Part shown: in pieces, positions 7,569 to 26,665 of the stretch
How positions within the stretch are numbered: position 1 is the first letter of the stretch
Layout of the letters: every line of letters starts with the position of its first letter
DNA from: Lachnospiraceae bacterium
GTDB lineage: Bacteria; Bacillota; Clostridia; Lachnospirales; Lachnospiraceae
NCBI GenBank assembly: GCA_017470985.1
Contig: JAFUXA010000012.1
Span: 62,001-126,000 of the forward strand
Direction of reading: 5' to 3'
DNA: 64,000 nt
Notes under the pieces: generated by a model
The model's database searches: none
The model's input: the letters and a program-made list of their open reading frames with translations, nothing else
Told to the model about the DNA's origin: nothing
Program-made: the position numbers and the translations under genes

Positions 7569-9611
7569 ATGAAGGTAAGAGATCTTCTATCAGCTGAGAG
7601 CATTATGATTGGTGCATCTGCAACTGACAAGAAAGCTGCTATCGAGCAGGCAGTTTCCTTAATGACCAAGAGAGGAAACATCACCAATGTTGAGCAGTAC
7701 ACTGCGGGTGTATTTGCCAGAGAGGAAGAAGGAACAACAGGAATAGGTGAGGGAATAGCAATTCCTCATTGTAAGTGTGATGGAGTATCTGCTCCAGGAC
7801 TTGCTGCAATGACCATTCCGGCAGGAGTTGACTTTGATGCACTTGATGGAGCTTCAGTTAATCTACTATTTTTGATTGCAGCTCCTGATACCAAGGATAA
7901 TGTACACTTGGATGTGCTCAGTAGATTGTCAGTGCTTCTGATGAATCCTGATTTTTCAGATGCTTTGAAGGGTGCAAAGACAGCAGAAGAATTCTTGTCT
8001 ATTATTGACAGGGCGGAAGAGAAGAAAGTTACTGAGGAAAAAGAAGAAGTGAAGGCTCCTGTAGCAGATAAGTTTATTGTTGCAGTAACAGGATGTCCAA
8101 CAGGAATTGCACATACATATATGGCTGCAGAAGCTTTAGAAAAGGCAGCAGCAGCTGCTGGAGTTACTATCAAAGTTGAGACAAGAGGTTCTGGTGGAGC
8201 CAAGAATGTGCTTACAGCAGAAGATATTGCCAAGGCAAGTGGAATTATTGTTGCATCAGATACCAAGGTTCCTATGGAGAGATTCGCAGGAAAGCCTGTA
8301 AAGGAATGTCATGTAGCCGATGGAATCAGCAAAGCGGATGAGCTTGTGAAAGAGGCAGTGGCAGGAACAGCCAAGGCTTATGTTGTAAAAGAAAGCACAA
8401 AAGAGGAGAGTGTTAAAGATACAGCTGGTGATTCAGTTGGACACCAGATTTATACCCACCTTATGAGTGGTGTATCACATATGTTACCATTCGTTATTGG
8501 CGGTGGTATCTTAATCGCATTGGCATTTTTGCTTGATACATTAATGGGCTATGGAGATGTAGGTGGAAGCTTTGGTTCTGCAACACCAATCTCAGCCTTC
8601 CTTAAGTATATCGGAGGCCTTGCAATGGGACTTATGGTTCCAGTACTTGCAGGTTATATAGCTTATTCAATTGCTGACAGACCAGGTCTTGCAGTTGGTT
8701 TCCTTGGTGGTTTACTTGCTTCAAATGGAAATGCAGCAATTGCTGATTATGATTGGTCAAATGTTGGAGGATTTGCCAAGTTTGTACAGGACTTCGCCTT
8801 TGTAGGTGAAGGAAGTGGAAATACAGTATCAGGTTTCCTTGGTGGAATCGCAGCTGGTTTCCTTGCTGGATTTGTAGTTCTGTGGTTGAAGAAGATTACA
8901 GAGAATATGCCTAAGTCATTGGATGGAATTAGACCAATCCTTATTTACCCAGTATGCGGTACATTTATCGTAGGCGTTGTAATGTGCTTCATCTTGAATC
9001 CACTTATTGGACTTGTAAATACAGGATTATCAATTATGCTTACAGCAGTAGCTGCTTCAGGTATGATTTGGTTGTTGGGATTAATCCTTGGAGCTATGAT
9101 GGCTATCGATATGGGTGGCCCAATTAACAAGGCTGCTTATGTATTTGGTACAGGTATGCTTGCTACAGCAGCTGATCTTACAGCAGCTGGTGCATCAGCA
9201 ACTGATCCACAGGTTCAGGCTTGCTATATTGCAATGGCAGCTATTATGGCTGGTGGTATGGTTCCACCTCTTGGAATTGCTCTTGCTTGTATCTTCTTCC
9301 CAAAGAAGTTTACAGCAGCTGAGAGAGAAACTAAGATTTCAAACATCGTAATGGCATGTGGATTCATCACAGAAGGTGCTATTCCATTTGCGGCAGCTGA
9401 CCCAGGACGTGTAATCCCTAGTACAATGGTTGGAGCAGGAGTTGCAGGACTTCTCTCAGCACTCTTCGGATGTACACTGATGGCTCCTCATGGTGGAGTA
9501 TTCGTATTTGCAACTGTTGGTAAGCCATTCATGTATATCGTGGCTTGGCTTGTAGGTTCAATTGTGACAATGTTCATGCTTGGACTTCTCAAGAAAGATG
9601 CAGAGGCATAA
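7569..9611 (+). CDS. fruA: PTS fructose transporter, EIIA-EIIB-EIIC fusion
   Basis: Imports fructose and phosphorylates it to fructose 1-phosphate using phosphate relayed from EI and HPr. The 680 residues hold EIIA (1-150, phospho-His67 in IPHCKC), EIIB (about 170-270, phospho-Cys176 in VTGCPTGIAHTYMA) and a membrane EIIC (about 295-675) with many hydrophobic segments such as GVSHMLPFVIGGGILIALAF and IDMGGPINKAAYVFG. AAGGAGGAG precedes the start. It is followed by ptsH and ptsI, making a complete self-contained PTS set. Confidence 0.95.
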   Translation: MKVRDLLSAESIMIGASATDKKAAIEQAVSLMTKRGNITNVEQYTAGVFAREEEGTTGIGEGIAIPHCKCDGVSAPGLAAMTIPAGVDFDALDGASVNLLFLIAAPDTKDNVHLDVLSRLSVLLMNPDFSDALKGAKTAEEFLSIIDRAEEKKVTEEKEEVKAPVADKFIVAVTGCPTGIAHTYMAAEALEKAAAAAGVTIKVETRGSGGAKNVLTAEDIAKASGIIVASDTKVPMERFAGKPVKECHVADGISKADELVKEAVAGTAKAYVVKESTKEESVKDTAGDSVGHQIYTHLMSGVSHMLPFVIGGGILIALAFLLDTLMGYGDVGGSFGSATPISAFLKYIGGLAMGLMVPVLAGYIAYSIADRPGLAVGFLGGLLASNGNAAIADYDWSNVGGFAKFVQDFAFVGEGSGNTVSGFLGGIAAGFLAGFVVLWLKKITENMPKSLDGIRPILIYPVCGTFIVGVVMCFILNPLIGLVNTGLSIMLTAVAASGMIWLLGLILGAMMAIDMGGPINKAAYVFGTGMLATAADLTAAGASATDPQVQACYIAMAAIMAGGMVPPLGIALACIFFPKKFTAAERETKISNIVMACGFITEGAIPFAAADPGRVIPSTMVGAGVAGLLSALFGCTLMAPHGGVFVFATVGKPFMYIVAWLVGSIVTMFMLGLLKKDAEA

Positions 9612-17254: not shown

Positions 17255-19120
17255 ATGTGTGGAATTTGTGGATTTATAGGAAAGACAAAGGATGAGTTAG
17301 ATAGAGAGAAAACTCTTAATGCTATGATGGATAGAATTATTCATAGAGGTCCAGATCAGGAGGGCAAATATCTTAATGATTCAGTTGCTCTTGGATTCAG
17401 AAGACTGAGTATCAATGATTTGGATCATGGAATGCAGCCTATGTACAATGAGACAGGGGATGTGGCAATTGTATTCAACGGTGAGATATATAATTATCCG
17501 GAACTTAGAAAAGAGCTGGAAGCCAAGGGGCATGTATTTGCAAATAATGCAGATACAGAAAGTCTGGTTCACGGGTATGAAGAGTGGGGTACAGACCTTT
17601 TAAAGAAGGTTCGTGGTATGTTCGCTTTCATGATTTATGATATGAAAAAGGATATTATATTTGCTGCCAGAGATTTCTTTGGTATTAAGCCTTTCTATTA
17701 TTCAAATGTTGATGGAGTATTTGTATTTGGTTCAGAGATCAAGAGCATAATTGAGTTCCCGGGTGTGAAGCGTGAGGTAAATGATGCAGCTCTTGAGCAG
17801 TATATGTCATTCCAGTATTCCGTGTTACCTGAGACTTTCTTCAAGGGGATTTACAAAGTTCCTGCAGGTCATTATTTGTGGTTTGAAGGCGATAAGATGG
17901 ATGTGGTACAGTACTTCGATCCTCTTATGCAACCAGAGAAGAAGCCGGAAGGTTTGGAGAAGACAGTTGATGAAATAGAAGCATTGATTCATGAGTCTAC
18001 ACAGGCCCATATGTTGGCGGATGTAGAAGTAGGAGCTTCCCTTTCCAGTGGTGTTGATTCAAGTTATCTTGTTTCAGAATTTCCTGGTGAGAAAACATAC
18101 ACAGTTGGATTCCTTGATAAAGAGAGCAAATATAATGAGATTCGTTATGCTGAGGACTTGTGTGCGGCTCTTGGCAACAAGAAGAATATAAGCAAGACTA
18201 TTTCTTCGGATGAATATTTTGATTCCATTCCAAAGATTATGTATTACATGGATGAGCCATTAGCTGACCCTTCATGTATAGCTCTGTATTTTGTAGACGA
18301 ACTTGCTGCCAAGGATATCAAGGTAGTTCTCTCAGGAGAAGGAGCTGATGAATTCTTTGGCGGTTACAATATATATCATGAGCCATTTTCACTGGCTAAG
18401 TATCAGAAGCTTCCAAAGGGACTTCGCAAGGGCGTTGCTGCAGTTGCTGAGAAGATGCCTCGTATCAAGGGTAGAAATTTCCTGATTCGCGGATCCAAGG
18501 ATGTGGAAGAGAGATTTATTGGAAATGCAAATCTGTTCTCTGTAAAAGAGCGTGAGTCTATCCTGAAATCAGAGCTTACTCATGTGACACCGGCAGAGAT
18601 TGTTGCACCTTATTACAAGAAGTGTGAGGGCTTAAGTGATATTGCCAAGATGCAGTATATTGATATGAACTTCTGGTTACAGGGAGATATCCTCCTGAAA
18701 GCAGACAAGATGAGTATGGCTCATTCTCTTGAGGCTAGAGTGCCATATCTGGATAAGGTGGTATTTGAATATGCGAAATATCTGCCGATCGAGTACAAGG
18801 TAACAGATACAGCCACCAAGATGGCATTCAGAGAAGCTGCCAAGAGACATATTCCTGAATTCAGTGCCAACAAGAAGAAGCTTGGATTCCCTGTTCCTAT
18901 CAGAGTGTGGCTCAAGGAAGACAAGTATTACAACAAAGTACTTGCAACTCTTACTTCAGAAGCTGCCAAGAAGTACTTCGACCAGGATGAAGTTGTCAGA
19001 CTGATGGAAGAGCACAGAGATGGTAAGGCTGATAACAGCCGTAAAATCTGGGCCATTTATGTATTCCTTATCTGGCACAAAGTCTACATTGAGGACGATC
19101 AGGCCAAGAAGCCAGCATAA
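17255..19120 (+). CDS. asnB: asparagine synthetase (glutamine-hydrolysing)
   Basis: Makes asparagine from aspartate, ATP and glutamine. It has 621 residues. The class II amidotransferase begins MCGICGFIG, leaving Cys as nucleophile after Met removal, with RGPDQEG and FNGEIYNYPELR following. The synthetase domain has the ATP pyrophosphatase loop SLSSGVDSSYL, then SGEGADEFFGGY and LEARVPYLD. A GAGAGGAAG site is upstream. The 251-bp hairpin element begins 15 bases after the stop. Confidence 0.95.
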   Translation: MCGICGFIGKTKDELDREKTLNAMMDRIIHRGPDQEGKYLNDSVALGFRRLSINDLDHGMQPMYNETGDVAIVFNGEIYNYPELRKELEAKGHVFANNADTESLVHGYEEWGTDLLKKVRGMFAFMIYDMKKDIIFAARDFFGIKPFYYSNVDGVFVFGSEIKSIIEFPGVKREVNDAALEQYMSFQYSVLPETFFKGIYKVPAGHYLWFEGDKMDVVQYFDPLMQPEKKPEGLEKTVDEIEALIHESTQAHMLADVEVGASLSSGVDSSYLVSEFPGEKTYTVGFLDKESKYNEIRYAEDLCAALGNKKNISKTISSDEYFDSIPKIMYYMDEPLADPSCIALYFVDELAAKDIKVVLSGEGADEFFGGYNIYHEPFSLAKYQKLPKGLRKGVAAVAEKMPRIKGRNFLIRGSKDVEERFIGNANLFSVKERESILKSELTHVTPAEIVAPYYKKCEGLSDIAKMQYIDMNFWLQGDILLKADKMSMAHSLEARVPYLDKVVFEYAKYLPIEYKVTDTATKMAFREAAKRHIPEFSANKKKLGFPVPIRVWLKEDKYYNKVLATLTSEAAKKYFDQDEVVRLMEEHRDGKADNSRKIWAIYVFLIWHKVYIEDDQAKKPA

Positions 19121-19134
19121 ATCAGTTAGATAAA

Positions 19135-19385
19135 GTGGAGCTCTGAGAGCCTATAGCTAATTTAAAAAGATTAAGCGTAACCACTTGTTATTACGAAGTT
19201 TGAGAATTACAAATCAATAGTGACCGAAGCACTGTTCGACGCGCAATAGGGCTTTAGAACTTGCTTGCAAGTATCTTAGCCCTATGCGCTAGTTTGCGAG
19301 GTTACATTGATTTAATTCGAAAAACTGAAGTAATAACTTAGTAGTTACGCTTTTTTTAATTAGCTATAGGCTCTCGGAGCTCCAC
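19135..19385. repeat. 251-bp imperfect inverted repeat (large hairpin)
   Basis: The whole interval between convergent asnB and hflX is one imperfect palindrome. The outer 28 bases (GTGGAGCTCTGAGAGCCTAT... at 19135-19162) match the opposite arm at 19358-19385 with one mismatch. Inward, paired blocks recur in the same order: GCGTAAC/GTTACGC, GTTATTAC/GTAATAAC, AAATCAAT/ATTGATTT, and GCGCAATAGGGCT/AGCCCTATGCGC, closing near GCTTGCAAG at the tip. No open frame of note lies inside and no clear target duplication flanks it. It may be a MITE-like element, a structured RNA, or a bidirectional terminator. Confidence 0.85.
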
Positions 19386-19419
19386 CCTATTTAATGCTAT
19401 ATATTGGAACGCATGTTGT

Positions 19420-20778
19420 TTATAGCTTGTAGGCTTCTGCCTGATTCAGTGTGCGCATGTCACTGTCGGCAGACATATATTCTAATTTGACATATGTACC
19501 ATCTGCGCGGTATTCCTGCTCCAGTGCATTTCCCAGATCTAATAATTGACTTAACAGACTTCCCTCGCTGTAAGGTATGAGATATTCTGCAATTATACTC
19601 TGGCCGAAGAGAGAGTCTAGAATCATATTCATAAGTTCAGGTATACCAATGCCCTTTGAAGCTGCCATATGTATATGGTTGGCAGTAATGCTTGGCAGGT
19701 CTGACGCAAAGGCAGGCACGCGGTCTGCTTTGTTATAAGCTACAATCATAGGAATGTCTCCTGCACCGAGCTCTTTTAGAGTAGAAGCGGTGACTTCCAT
19801 GTGCTGCCGGTAATATGGATCTGATACATCTACAACCTGGATCAGTAAGTCAGCATTGAGGGCTTCCTCCAAGGTGGAACGAAAGGCATCAATTAGATTA
19901 TGCGGTAATTTGTCAATGAAACCTACTGTATCAGACAGATAGAAATCCGGCTTGTTCTCCGGAGTAATCTTTCTGATGGTAGTTTCAAGAGTGGCAAACA
20001 ACATGTCCTGTTGCAGAACCTTTTTATGTTCATTGTCTAGTATTTCATCATTTCCAAAGACAGACAGCATCTGGTTCATAACTGTTGACTTGCCGGCGTT
20101 GGTATATCCTACGAGAGCTACTTGGGGAATGGCAGAAGCGACGCGACTCTTACGCTGAGTCTGACGGTTTTGCTTTACAACCTTTAGCTCCTTTTTGCAC
20201 TCTGAGATTCTGTGAGAGATATATCTCTTGTCTAATTCCAGCTTCTTCTCACCGGCACCCTTGTTGGAACGACTTCCACTTCCGCCGCCCTGTCGACTCA
20301 TGGCTGTTCCCATTCCTGTTAATCGAGGAAGGAGATACTGTAACTTTGCCAGTTCTACTTGTAGCTTTGCCTCTCTGGTCTGAGCGCGACTGGCAAATAT
20401 TTCAAGTATAATAGAAGTTCTGTCCATGATTGGCAGGCCTATTTCACTATTGAGATTTCTGGCTTGTGATGGAGATAATGAGTCGTCAAATATTATTAAA
20501 TCTGCGTCTAGATTTCTGGCAGCAGTTTTGACCTCATCTACCTTTCCAGTACCAATGTACAATGCCTGGTGTGGAGCATCCAGACTTTGAGTGATGGTAA
20601 AGACCGGCAAAATATTACATGCTTCACACAGACTTTCCAACTCCTCAAGAGAATGGGAGAAATCCTTGGAATTTGGCAACTGCAGACCGACTAGAATGGC
20701 TTTTTCTCGATCATCATTTTCCAGATCACTGTATTCTATTTCAGCATCATCATTTTTAAAATAAATATTTGTTGTCAT
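19420..20778 (-). CDS. hflX: ribosome-associated GTPase HflX
   Basis: GTPase that binds the 50S subunit and helps split stalled ribosomes. It has 452 residues. The N-terminal HflX domain (about 25-200) contains LYIGTGKVDE and FDDSLSPSQARNL, and then the glycine-rich linker RQGGGSGSRSNKGAGE. The G domain has GYTNAGKST (P-loop), DTVGFI (G3) and AYNKAD (G4). AAGGA lies about 10 bases before the ATG. It converges on asnB across the large hairpin. Confidence 0.93.
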   Translation of the reverse strand: MTTNIYFKNDDAEIEYSDLENDDREKAILVGLQLPNSKDFSHSLEELESLCEACNILPVFTITQSLDAPHQALYIGTGKVDEVKTAARNLDADLIIFDDSLSPSQARNLNSEIGLPIMDRTSIILEIFASRAQTREAKLQVELAKLQYLLPRLTGMGTAMSRQGGGSGSRSNKGAGEKKLELDKRYISHRISECKKELKVVKQNRQTQRKSRVASAIPQVALVGYTNAGKSTVMNQMLSVFGNDEILDNEHKKVLQQDMLFATLETTIRKITPENKPDFYLSDTVGFIDKLPHNLIDAFRSTLEEALNADLLIQVVDVSDPYYRQHMEVTASTLKELGAGDIPMIVAYNKADRVPAFASDLPSITANHIHMAASKGIGIPELMNMILDSLFGQSIIAEYLIPYSEGSLLSQLLDLGNALEQEYRADGTYVKLEYMSADSDMRTLNQAEAYKL

Positions 20779-24448: not shown

Positions 24449-25522
24449 TTACATCTTATTATTAATAGGTAAACTTACGGTAAATGTTGTCCCTTTATCC
24501 AGAACACTTTCTACAGATATAGAACCGTGGCACAAAGTGACAACCCTGTTGCAAATTGCCAGGCCTAAGCCTAAGCCTTTCCCAGAGTGAGAAGAGTCGG
24601 CCTGGTAATATTTGTTAAATATATGTGCTATTTCTTCATCTGACATACCACATCCGGAATCTGTGATTTTGAAAATGATAGAAGGATTATCTCCAGATGT
24701 ATTTTGAGTTAATGTTATTTTGATCACTCCATTTTCCGGCGTGAACTTAATAGCGTTGTTTAGCAGGTTGATCCATATGTGTTCCGTTAGAGTAGGATCT
24801 CCCACATAGTTGGTCTTATCTAAATCGATTTCCATATTTATATTTTTGCTAGACCAATCGTTCTGCAATAGAATGATGCAACGCCTTATTTGTTCACTTA
24901 ATGAGAAGGTTTTAATGGCGGACTCGTTGATTTTCACCTGAGTGTCCAGCTTTGACATGAGCATTGTCTGTTGCGCCAAGTTGGATAGTCGCTCCGACTC
25001 GTCAGCAATTATTGTCAGATATTGTCTTTTCTCTTCTTCTGTCAGATTTTCTTCCAATAATAGATTTGCAAATCCGTTGATGGATACAATTGGTGTTTTG
25101 AATTCGTGAGAAAAGTCGTTGATGAAATCCTTTCTCAAAGTTTCAACACTTGCCAAGTCTTCTGCCATGGAGTTGAAACTGTCACTCATTTCTTTAAGGG
25201 GTGCCATACGTCGGCTGTCTAATCTGATGTTGTAATTGCCTTTTGCCACGGATGCCATTGCGGAGGTGAGTATATTTACCTTTTTAATAATTGTCTTGGA
25301 GAAGAAATATGTGAATAGTTCCATCATGAAAGCCATTGGCATCAGAATTCCAATACCGTCTAGAGGCTGATACTCTGTTCGACTGTCGAGGAAGGTGTAG
25401 AGCATGAAGTCTACAAATTCATAAGCCATAATCGATAAAACTGCAGGGACAATAGCCATGATGGCCATATAGTTTTGAAAACGTGTATTGTCAGGTCTAG
25501 AGGTTTTGTTATGATTTGCCAT
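24449..25522 (-). CDS. sensor histidine kinase, intramembrane-sensing type
   Basis: Membrane kinase of 357 residues paired with the downstream regulator. Two transmembrane helices (about 17-46 and 56-79) are joined by an outside loop of only about ten residues, so the signal is probably read in or at the membrane. A HAMP linker (about 80-130) leads to the phospho-His139 in DFSHEFKTP. ATPase boxes are NLLNNAIKF (N), DSGCGMSDEE (G1) and GKGLGLGLAI (G2). This topology is common among envelope-stress and antimicrobial-peptide sensors, which is a family-level hint only. Confidence 0.9.
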   Translation of the reverse strand: MANHNKTSRPDNTRFQNYMAIMAIVPAVLSIMAYEFVDFMLYTFLDSRTEYQPLDGIGILMPMAFMMELFTYFFSKTIIKKVNILTSAMASVAKGNYNIRLDSRRMAPLKEMSDSFNSMAEDLASVETLRKDFINDFSHEFKTPIVSINGFANLLLEENLTEEEKRQYLTIIADESERLSNLAQQTMLMSKLDTQVKINESAIKTFSLSEQIRRCIILLQNDWSSKNINMEIDLDKTNYVGDPTLTEHIWINLLNNAIKFTPENGVIKITLTQNTSGDNPSIIFKITDSGCGMSDEEIAHIFNKYYQADSSHSGKGLGLGLAICNRVVTLCHGSISVESVLDKGTTFTVSLPINNKM

Positions 25523-25651
25523 AATTTATTACCTTTCAAAAATTATTTTTCGTTTACTTATAATTTACTTTTTTATTGTATCTTGTTTTCAGTGAAAAAC
25601 AAGTCACGAATTTGTTAAATAATTTTTAATATAGCGAGGAGGCAATTAATT

Positions 25652-26665
25652 ATGGCAAAGACAAAGTATTTAGTAACAGGAGCTGCAGGATTTCTTGGAG
25701 GAACAGTATGCAGACAGCTTATAGATAGAGGTGATGATGTTAGAGCATTTGTACTTCCAAATGATCCTGCAATTAAGTTTGTTCCAGAGGAAGCAGAGGT
25801 ATGTGTGGGTGATTTGACAGATGTTGAATCTCTGGAGAGATTCTTTACAGTAGAGGATGGCGTGGAGACAATTGTGATGCATATTGCAAGTATCGTAACA
25901 GTGAATCCTGAATTCAATCAGAAGGTTATTGACGTAAATGTAGGCGGTACAGAAAACATTATTGATTTATGCCTGTCCCATCCTGAGTGTAAGAAGCTGG
26001 TATATTGCAGCTCCACAGGTGCAATTCCTGAGATGCCAAAGGGAGAAGTTATTAGAGAAGTAGATAGCTTCGAGGCAGATGATGTGTTGGGCTGTTATAG
26101 TCAGTCCAAGGCTATGGCTTCACAGGCAGTATTAGATGCTGTCAGTGACAGAGGGTTGAATGCATGTATTGTACATCCAAGTGGAATTATGGGACCGGAG
26201 GATTTTGCAATTGGAGAGACCACAGGTTCTTTGATTCAGATTATAAATGGTGAGATGCCAGCAGGAATTGATGGTGGATTTAATTTGTGTGATGTAAGAG
26301 ATTTAGCTGCTGGTACTATTGCTGCGGCTGATAAAGGAAAATGTGGCGAGTGCTACATCCTGGGAAACAAGGAAGTGAAGTTCAAGGATTTCGCTAAGAT
26401 GGTTGCTGATGAAGCAGGTGTGAAAGCTCCTGGATTCTATCTTCCAATTGGAATGGCTAATCTAATGGCTGGTATTATGGAAAGAAAGGCAAAACGCAAA
26501 GGTACTAAGCCGGTTATGACCAAGTTCTCAGTATATAATCTTGCTCGTAACAATTGCTTTGATTCAAGCAAGGCCAAGAAAGAATTGGGATATACAACAA
26601 GATCTTACCAGGAGACAATTCATGATGAGGTTGTATGGCTTAAGAAGGAAGGTAAGATTGCCTAA
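25652..26665 (+). CDS. NAD-dependent epimerase/dehydratase family protein
   Basis: Extended short-chain dehydrogenase of 337 residues, probably acting on a nucleotide sugar or a related alcohol/ketone. The N-terminal NAD fold has VTGAAGFLGGTV, the Asp-rich GDLTD region follows, and the catalytic pair is YSQSK with a preceding CSSTGA. The C-terminal substrate part is NmrA/dihydroflavonol-reductase-like rather than UDP-glucose-epimerase-like. GAGGAGG precedes the start. It is divergent from the two-component system, with a 129-base shared regulatory gap. Confidence 0.82.
   Translation: MAKTKYLVTGAAGFLGGTVCRQLIDRGDDVRAFVLPNDPAIKFVPEEAEVCVGDLTDVESLERFFTVEDGVETIVMHIASIVTVNPEFNQKVIDVNVGGTENIIDLCLSHPECKKLVYCSSTGAIPEMPKGEVIREVDSFEADDVLGCYSQSKAMASQAVLDAVSDRGLNACIVHPSGIMGPEDFAIGETTGSLIQIINGEMPAGIDGGFNLCDVRDLAAGTIAAADKGKCGECYILGNKEVKFKDFAKMVADEAGVKAPGFYLPIGMANLMAGIMERKAKRKGTKPVMTKFSVYNLARNNCFDSSKAKKELGYTTRSYQETIHDEVVWLKKEGKIA

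Follow-up and report, generated by a model that had tools for sequence, protein, structure and literature searches.

A hairpin element of 251 nt lies between two convergent genes in the 64-kb stretch of Lachnospiraceae DNA that was analysed (hereafter the window), and folds end to end as a single imperfect hairpin (positions 19135-19385; features of the element are given on the + strand, which is the better-folding one). The upstream neighbour, asnB (17255-19120, + strand), was assigned with the NCBIfam asparagine synthase model TIGR01536 and ends 14 bp before the element; the convergent neighbour, hflX (19420-20778, - strand), was assigned with the NCBIfam model TIGR03156 (GTPase HflX), and its stop codon is located 34 bp past the element. 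The original prediction had the hairpin filling the entire asnB-hflX spacer; it occupies most of these 299 bp, with the 14 bp and 34 bp left over, and the spacer contains no ORF of at least 60 amino acids, in agreement with the claim that the element carries no gene. The outer arms of 28 bp are found as described, the right one (19358-19385) having one mismatch against the left one (19135-19162), whose sequence is specific to the locus and which stays in place while the inner part flips between species. Between the arms lie an inner rod of 180 nt (19173-19352), with a helix and internal-loop plan largely common to copies at three loci, and, inside it, a conserved core of about 101 nt (19212-19312, AATCAATAG...CATTGATT) with asymmetric internal loops.

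The full-length imperfect hairpin was confirmed by direct reading and by folding of both strands. For positions 19125-19395, the RNA fold of the + strand reached -134.5 kcal/mol (shuffle mean -58.7, sd 4.54, z -16.7) and that of the - strand -123.4 kcal/mol (z -14.5), none of 200 shuffles being as good in either case. Inverted repeats were searched over the window using arms of at least 20 nt within 400 bases, and among the 6 pairs found the hairpin is the longest (43 nt, 88%), the runner-up being of 27 nt at 78%. Elsewhere in the window, a 20-bp inverted repeat (90%) with a 105-base spacer was observed at 25515-25659, at the start of an ORF (24449-25522) that resembles a putative sensor kinase. 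The element had also been described as distinct from an intrinsic terminator, and a scan of 19050-19470 for short G+C-rich hairpins followed by a T-run returned 0 sites, the simple consensus used being one that does not cover such long stems.

The window gave 0 matches to Rfam 15 at gathering cut-offs. At a relaxed threshold, the best match was the plant miRNA precursor MIR8562, on the whole hairpin (48.2 bits, E 7e-8, for a cut-off of 211), and four other loci likewise gave sub-cut-off matches only; matches of both searches were discarded as generic hairpin families, all below cut-off. Weak scores to several miRNA-precursor families were also seen on both strands of a short symmetric hairpin at the end of a dusB-like gene (contig C34 of the window's own genome, ~8467-8539), which is probably a terminator.

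Copies of the element were searched in the window's own genome (G000, an assembly 88.8% complete), in its genus-mates G001 and G002, and in wider sets of genomes. BLAST of the element against G000 returned two further places, on contigs C16 and C34; the remaining matches were the element itself, its reverse arm and one of 16 bases (E 0.56). In 98 genomes, G000 among them, clear copies beyond G000 were found only in G001 and G002; two matches of 22-27 bases in other families (E 0.005-0.008) look like chance. A covariance model of the ~101-nt core (R1), built from six sequences, recovered seven copies across the three genus members, located at three loci (A, the asnB-hflX locus, B and C): 3 in G000, 1 in G001 and 3 in G002, the G002 copies occupying the same three loci as those of G000.

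Searches with R1 returned no copy beyond the genus members in 61 genomes, no further clear copy in 397 genomes of the family (one weak partial match in G140, E 0.016) and no further copy in 392 genomes of the order. These three sets overlap, G001 was not drawn among the 397 family genomes, and neither G001 nor G002 was among the matches of the order search; filtering was stricter in the large searches, in which a part of the candidates was scored, so that weak relatives may have been missed. A loose pattern run over genome contigs retained at least 118 stretches, and R1, run on 20 of them, matched 2, both apparently on contigs C14 and C18 of G002. No match to the element was obtained by blastn against phage and plasmid collections, or by two exact patterns over viral contigs. 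Literature searches, covering titles and the starts of abstracts, gave no pointer to the family, which is not proof of absence.

The element thus belongs to a low-copy dispersed family, restricted to one genus among the genomes searched and without membership of any named family by the tests made. The family limited to this lineage that had been anticipated was found, whereas the many copies expected for a MITE were not, BLAST and the model giving 3, 1 and 3 copies in G000, G001 and G002, of which the G000 assembly is incomplete. Core identity was 92%, 96% and 93% in the three orthologue comparisons, and 60-78% between loci (74-78% for B against A). At locus A, G000 and G002 have the same core sequence; within a single genome there are no near-identical copies, the loci differing by 22-40% in the core.

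All seven copies are rods of 232-251 nt, with minimum free energies from -100.7 to -139.0 kcal/mol, a similar internal-loop plan and a G-CUUG-C tip, whose G-C-closed CUUG loop (19264-19267 in the window) is invariant in the aligned copies. The order of parts is largely common. From the ends inward, the outer helix is followed by short internal loops and then by two GA/GAA internal loops, read by eye from the folds (left sides at 19195-19196 and 19202-19203), which are present in the A and B copies and altered in C, the second being GT/TAA there. Further inward, an AATCAAT/ATTGATT helix and a single bulged A precede a GCA/UGC helix, which in other copies reads GCG/CGC or GUA/UAC; an asymmetric loop then leads to the tip. 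Judged by eye, the outer arms pair at each locus but are unlike between A, B and C; conservation between loci is thus lowest at the ends and the centre is conserved, which is the reverse of a MITE. Terminal inverted repeats common to the copies, as a MITE would have, were not seen by eye at the three loci, and the element corresponds neither to a lone terminator nor to a classical MITE.

Conservation of pairing was evaluated by imposing the fold of the window copy on six distinct inner rods, a procedure that favours this fold because the structure was derived from one of the tested sequences. Standard pairs made up 85.1% of the 415 cells (33.6-45.7% in controls using slid partners), and 32 of the 70 pairs were changed on both sides (3-10 pairs in the slid controls). 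For four of five pairing measures, 0 of 500 shuffles reached the observed value; the fifth, the number of further pair types, was reached by 142 of 500 and was counted against a rod kept for its RNA, as was the small number of lineages on which the covariation rests (three loci, three species).

Orthologous copies were also compared in pairs. Between the locus A copies of G000 and G001, double-compensated pairs number 9, or 8 when the other fold is used, where 1.7-1.9 are expected (0 of 2000); the broken pairs, 15 of 99 ungapped with the G000 fold and 12 of 98 with the G001 fold, are largely in the outer arms. The signal is weak at locus B (2 double changes against 0.3 expected; 57 and 67 of 2000) and mixed at locus C (2 or 3 against 0.4 or 0.3; 88 and 1 of 2000). 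Double-compensated pairs are absent between the A copies of G000 and G002. The compensated inner pairs that had been proposed as a sign of selection on RNA structure are plentiful between loci and between the A copies of G000 and G001, and weak, mixed or absent in the other orthologue comparisons.

Unpaired columns were more conserved than paired ones between A and B (32 of 40 against 81 of 139, one-sided Fisher p 0.009; in a second comparison, 32 of 40 against 84 of 138, one-sided p 0.018). The excess was not significant for A/C and B/C (p 0.27 and 0.26), for which the alignment of the locus C arms is uncertain, and unpaired sites were not clearly more conserved than paired ones in the orthologue comparisons. 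Compensatory helix changes together with conserved loops were therefore observed, on few independent lineages and with a loop excess significant only for A against B; template switching alone is reported to be able to mimic compensation (PMC8794818).

The core strand, defined as the strand carrying the conserved core as given above, folds better than its complement in all seven copies. It also holds more G-U pairs (27 against 8 on the other strand for the seven copies, 15 against 3 for the G000 copies alone), the counts being even (3 and 3) in the locus B copy of G002. Together, the better fold and the G-U excess suggest that the product is single-stranded and always of one polarity, either RNA or DNA, rather than a cruciform.

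Promoter signals were searched using two criteria. In the window copy no consensus site was found, by a scan that expects 0.9 sites by chance over 421 bp and both strands. With a looser criterion applied to all seven copies, which are not independent, five had a sigma-70-like site on the core strand and none had one on the other strand; the site is placed 28 bp before the core in the A copy of G001 and in both B copies, and 70 bp before it in both C copies. These promoter-like sites are considered as a lead only.

At locus B, the element sits between rsmE (TIGR00046), whose start is cut by a contig end in G000, and an IscS-type cysteine desulfurase gene, the two being co-directional. The spacer is of about 345 bp in G000 and 332 bp in G002, and of ~86 bp in G001. 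An outgroup of 27 loci was assembled from 27 of 48 genomes outside the genus: rsmE is directly upstream on the same strand in 26 of the 27, and the spacer is of at most 138 bp in 23 and of 200-459 bp in three. Folding gave z -1.8 to -2.8 for the three long spacers and z -3.5 for one of 138 bp (50 shuffles each), far from the -16.7 of the element. Given the short spacer in 23 of the 27 outgroup loci, the locus B element is a derived insertion. As the B cores differ more from the A cores than the A cores of G000 and G001 differ from each other, B is not derived from a recent copy of A unless it changed faster once inserted; from these identities, its source is more probably older or foreign.

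The genes at locus C are also co-directional, with a spacer of about 303 bp in G000, 344 bp in G002 and ~108 bp in G001. Two empty sites, a type of evidence named in the original prediction, are thus available in the sister species G001, at loci B and C; when target duplications were sought, filled and empty spacers were too diverged for the junctions to be aligned. Locus C cannot be polarised since its HAD-dusB gene pair was found in the genus and at none of 21 outgroup loci, and the same holds for locus A, asnB being found beside hflX in 0 of 27 outgroup loci within ~1.5 kb beyond hflX (scan of 30 loci including the outgroup ones, with matches in 55 of 61 genomes). In the genus, the most stable 280-base stretch after hflX has a fold of -123.4 to -130.6 kcal/mol; at the 27 outgroup loci the range is from -53.5 to -108.6 kcal/mol, all values being uncorrected for base composition. 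Four of the six neighbouring genes are linked to the ribosome or to RNA modification (hflX, rsmE, iscS beside thiI, and the dusB-like gene), which may be chance with three loci.

The orientation of the element relative to its flanking genes differs between species at two of the three loci, a behaviour outside the expectations of the original prediction. In G000 the core strand has the direction of asnB at locus A and of rsmE-iscS at locus B, while the opposite direction is found for A in both G001 and G002 and for B in G002; at locus C, G000 and G002 agree. Pairwise alignments that follow the flanks show the element reversed while its outer arms keep their position, the flipped part being of ~195 nt. 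Since orientation relative to the neighbours is not kept, an RNA read from a neighbour's promoter is an awkward proposal.

The A copies of G000 and G002 show 4 substitutions in 246 aligned bases, and neighbouring 250-base steps outside the element are 76-94% identical; inversion was therefore fast relative to substitutions, or followed an exchange. A low-divergence tract of ~400 bp (window ~19080-19490) was observed between these two genomes, covering the asnB tail, the element and the hflX tail and extending by about 65-90 bases into each gene; next to it, hflX is about 20% diverged. Recent transposition was set aside as the cause of the similarity of the two copies: as the tract enters both flanking genes, an explanation by homologous exchange (here between species) or by local constraint, both suggested by the tract, is as likely. 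Arm homogenisation and spacer inversion are reported to result from template switching between the arms of inverted repeats (PMC8604942), a process also described as able to create and maintain RNA hairpins (PMC8794818).

That this is a real, dispersed and structured element is demonstrated by its three loci, common core and architecture, compensated arms, strand bias, inversion and insertion at locus B. The original prediction, which had opposed a MITE to a structured RNA, was right in part, evidence for both being present in a form that it did not foresee. We tentatively favour, at somewhat under an even chance, an old mobile non-autonomous palindrome that was kept for a strand-specific rod acting at the RNA level, with flips and some of the arm matching produced by template switching. 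A low-copy palindromic element of one Lachnospiraceae genus would have entered intergenic spacers and been maintained because the RNA of one strand forms a rod of ~250 nt, in which helices follow a set order, internal loops are purine-rich and the tip is G-CUUG-C. It would be transcribed by read-through from a neighbour or from its own promoter, and would act on host transcripts as a double-stranded processing or stability element, the conserved loops being read by an RNase III-type or rod-binding protein. By analogy, an action on flanking mRNAs like that of ERIC or NEMIS RNAs is the most likely one. The inversions and part of the arm matching would arise during replication, when the polymerase switches template from one inverted arm to the other. 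No target duplication or mobilising enzyme was identified, which counts against this reading.

The strongest competing explanation, which we consider somewhat unlikely, is a purely DNA-level selfish repeat, in which the folded single-stranded hairpin would be recognised by a trans-acting enzyme following an HUH/REP-type logic, pairing being kept by template switching and by this recognition, with no RNA function. Dispersal, the insertion at B, the existence of empty sites and the tolerance of flips are all consistent with it, and the bias of G-T pairs towards one strand would also fit a strand-specific single-stranded DNA substrate. A possible partner was sought as Y1_Tnp only, and one match was found in each of the three genomes, the G000 copy being an open frame of 141 amino acids; the match on contig C5 of G002 has an internal stop. 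However, comparison of the elements with the three Y1_Tnp loci gave no similarity better than E 0.06, which is chance level, the ends are unlike between loci, and near-identical copies within a genome are lacking.

An autonomous small RNA gene, carrying its own promoter on the core strand and moving and flipping as a self-contained transcription unit, is unlikely. Such a gene would account for a strand bias that is independent of the orientation of the neighbours and for sigma-70-like sites confined to the core strand, but these sites come from the loose criterion, the A copies of G000 and G002 have none, a start from the -28 site would fall inside the rod and omit its left arm, and no constant terminator was seen. 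A mobile functional RNA, that is a self-contained strand-specific rod gene with recombining arms, inserting beside tRNA- and rRNA-modification genes and flipping between neighbours, is quite improbable; if it were true, the same locus would deliver the rod to different transcripts in different lineages. Finally, an oversized bidirectional terminator or mRNA 3'-end protector for the convergent asnB and hflX, selected only for pairing, would suit the position of the A element close to both stop codons, but is very improbable given co-directional genes at B and C, zero terminator-like sites in the simple consensus scan (whose coverage excludes stems of this length), and a conserved core sequence and loops that it would not need.

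The old palindrome kept for its RNA rod, which we favour, was compared with known systems by description only. ERIC/IRU (RU-1) and Correia/NEMIS are likewise small intergenic mobile repeats giving long stem-loop transcripts, reported or proposed to affect flanking mRNA through RNase E (ERIC) or RNase III (NEMIS); they are of about 100-200 bp with terminal inverted repeats and target duplications (PMC2229807), whereas the present family is of about 250 nt, at three loci, with locus-specific ends, a conserved centre and in-place inversion. The pneumococcal BOX, RUP and SPRITE repeats are also interspersed and predicted to form stem-loops when transcribed; some BOX elements are reported as expressed and new insertions as slow at present, but BOX is modular and, like RUP, has terminal inverted repeats with target duplications (PMC3049150). 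Repeats with stem-loops are also described in a survey of 40 bacterial genomes that reports 92 families, two thirds of them intergenic and with a common predicted structure (PMC2267715). Quasi-palindrome evolution by template switching produces the same arm homogenisation and spacer inversion, but the inverted spacers described in PMC8604942 carry 2-5 substitutions, the flipped part being of ~195 nt here, and template switching is a mutational process rather than a family, which alone leaves the conserved loops and the dispersal unexplained.

The hairpin family unites a dispersed, flipping palindrome with RNA-like covariation, two properties that are usually seen apart. As its orthologues occur in both orientations at low divergence, and an outgroup with empty sites is available, it offers a compact natural test of the share of "compensatory" change in hairpins that is due to selection and of that due to template switching, and the family would add to the Lachnospiraceae a repeat with no match in Rfam 15.
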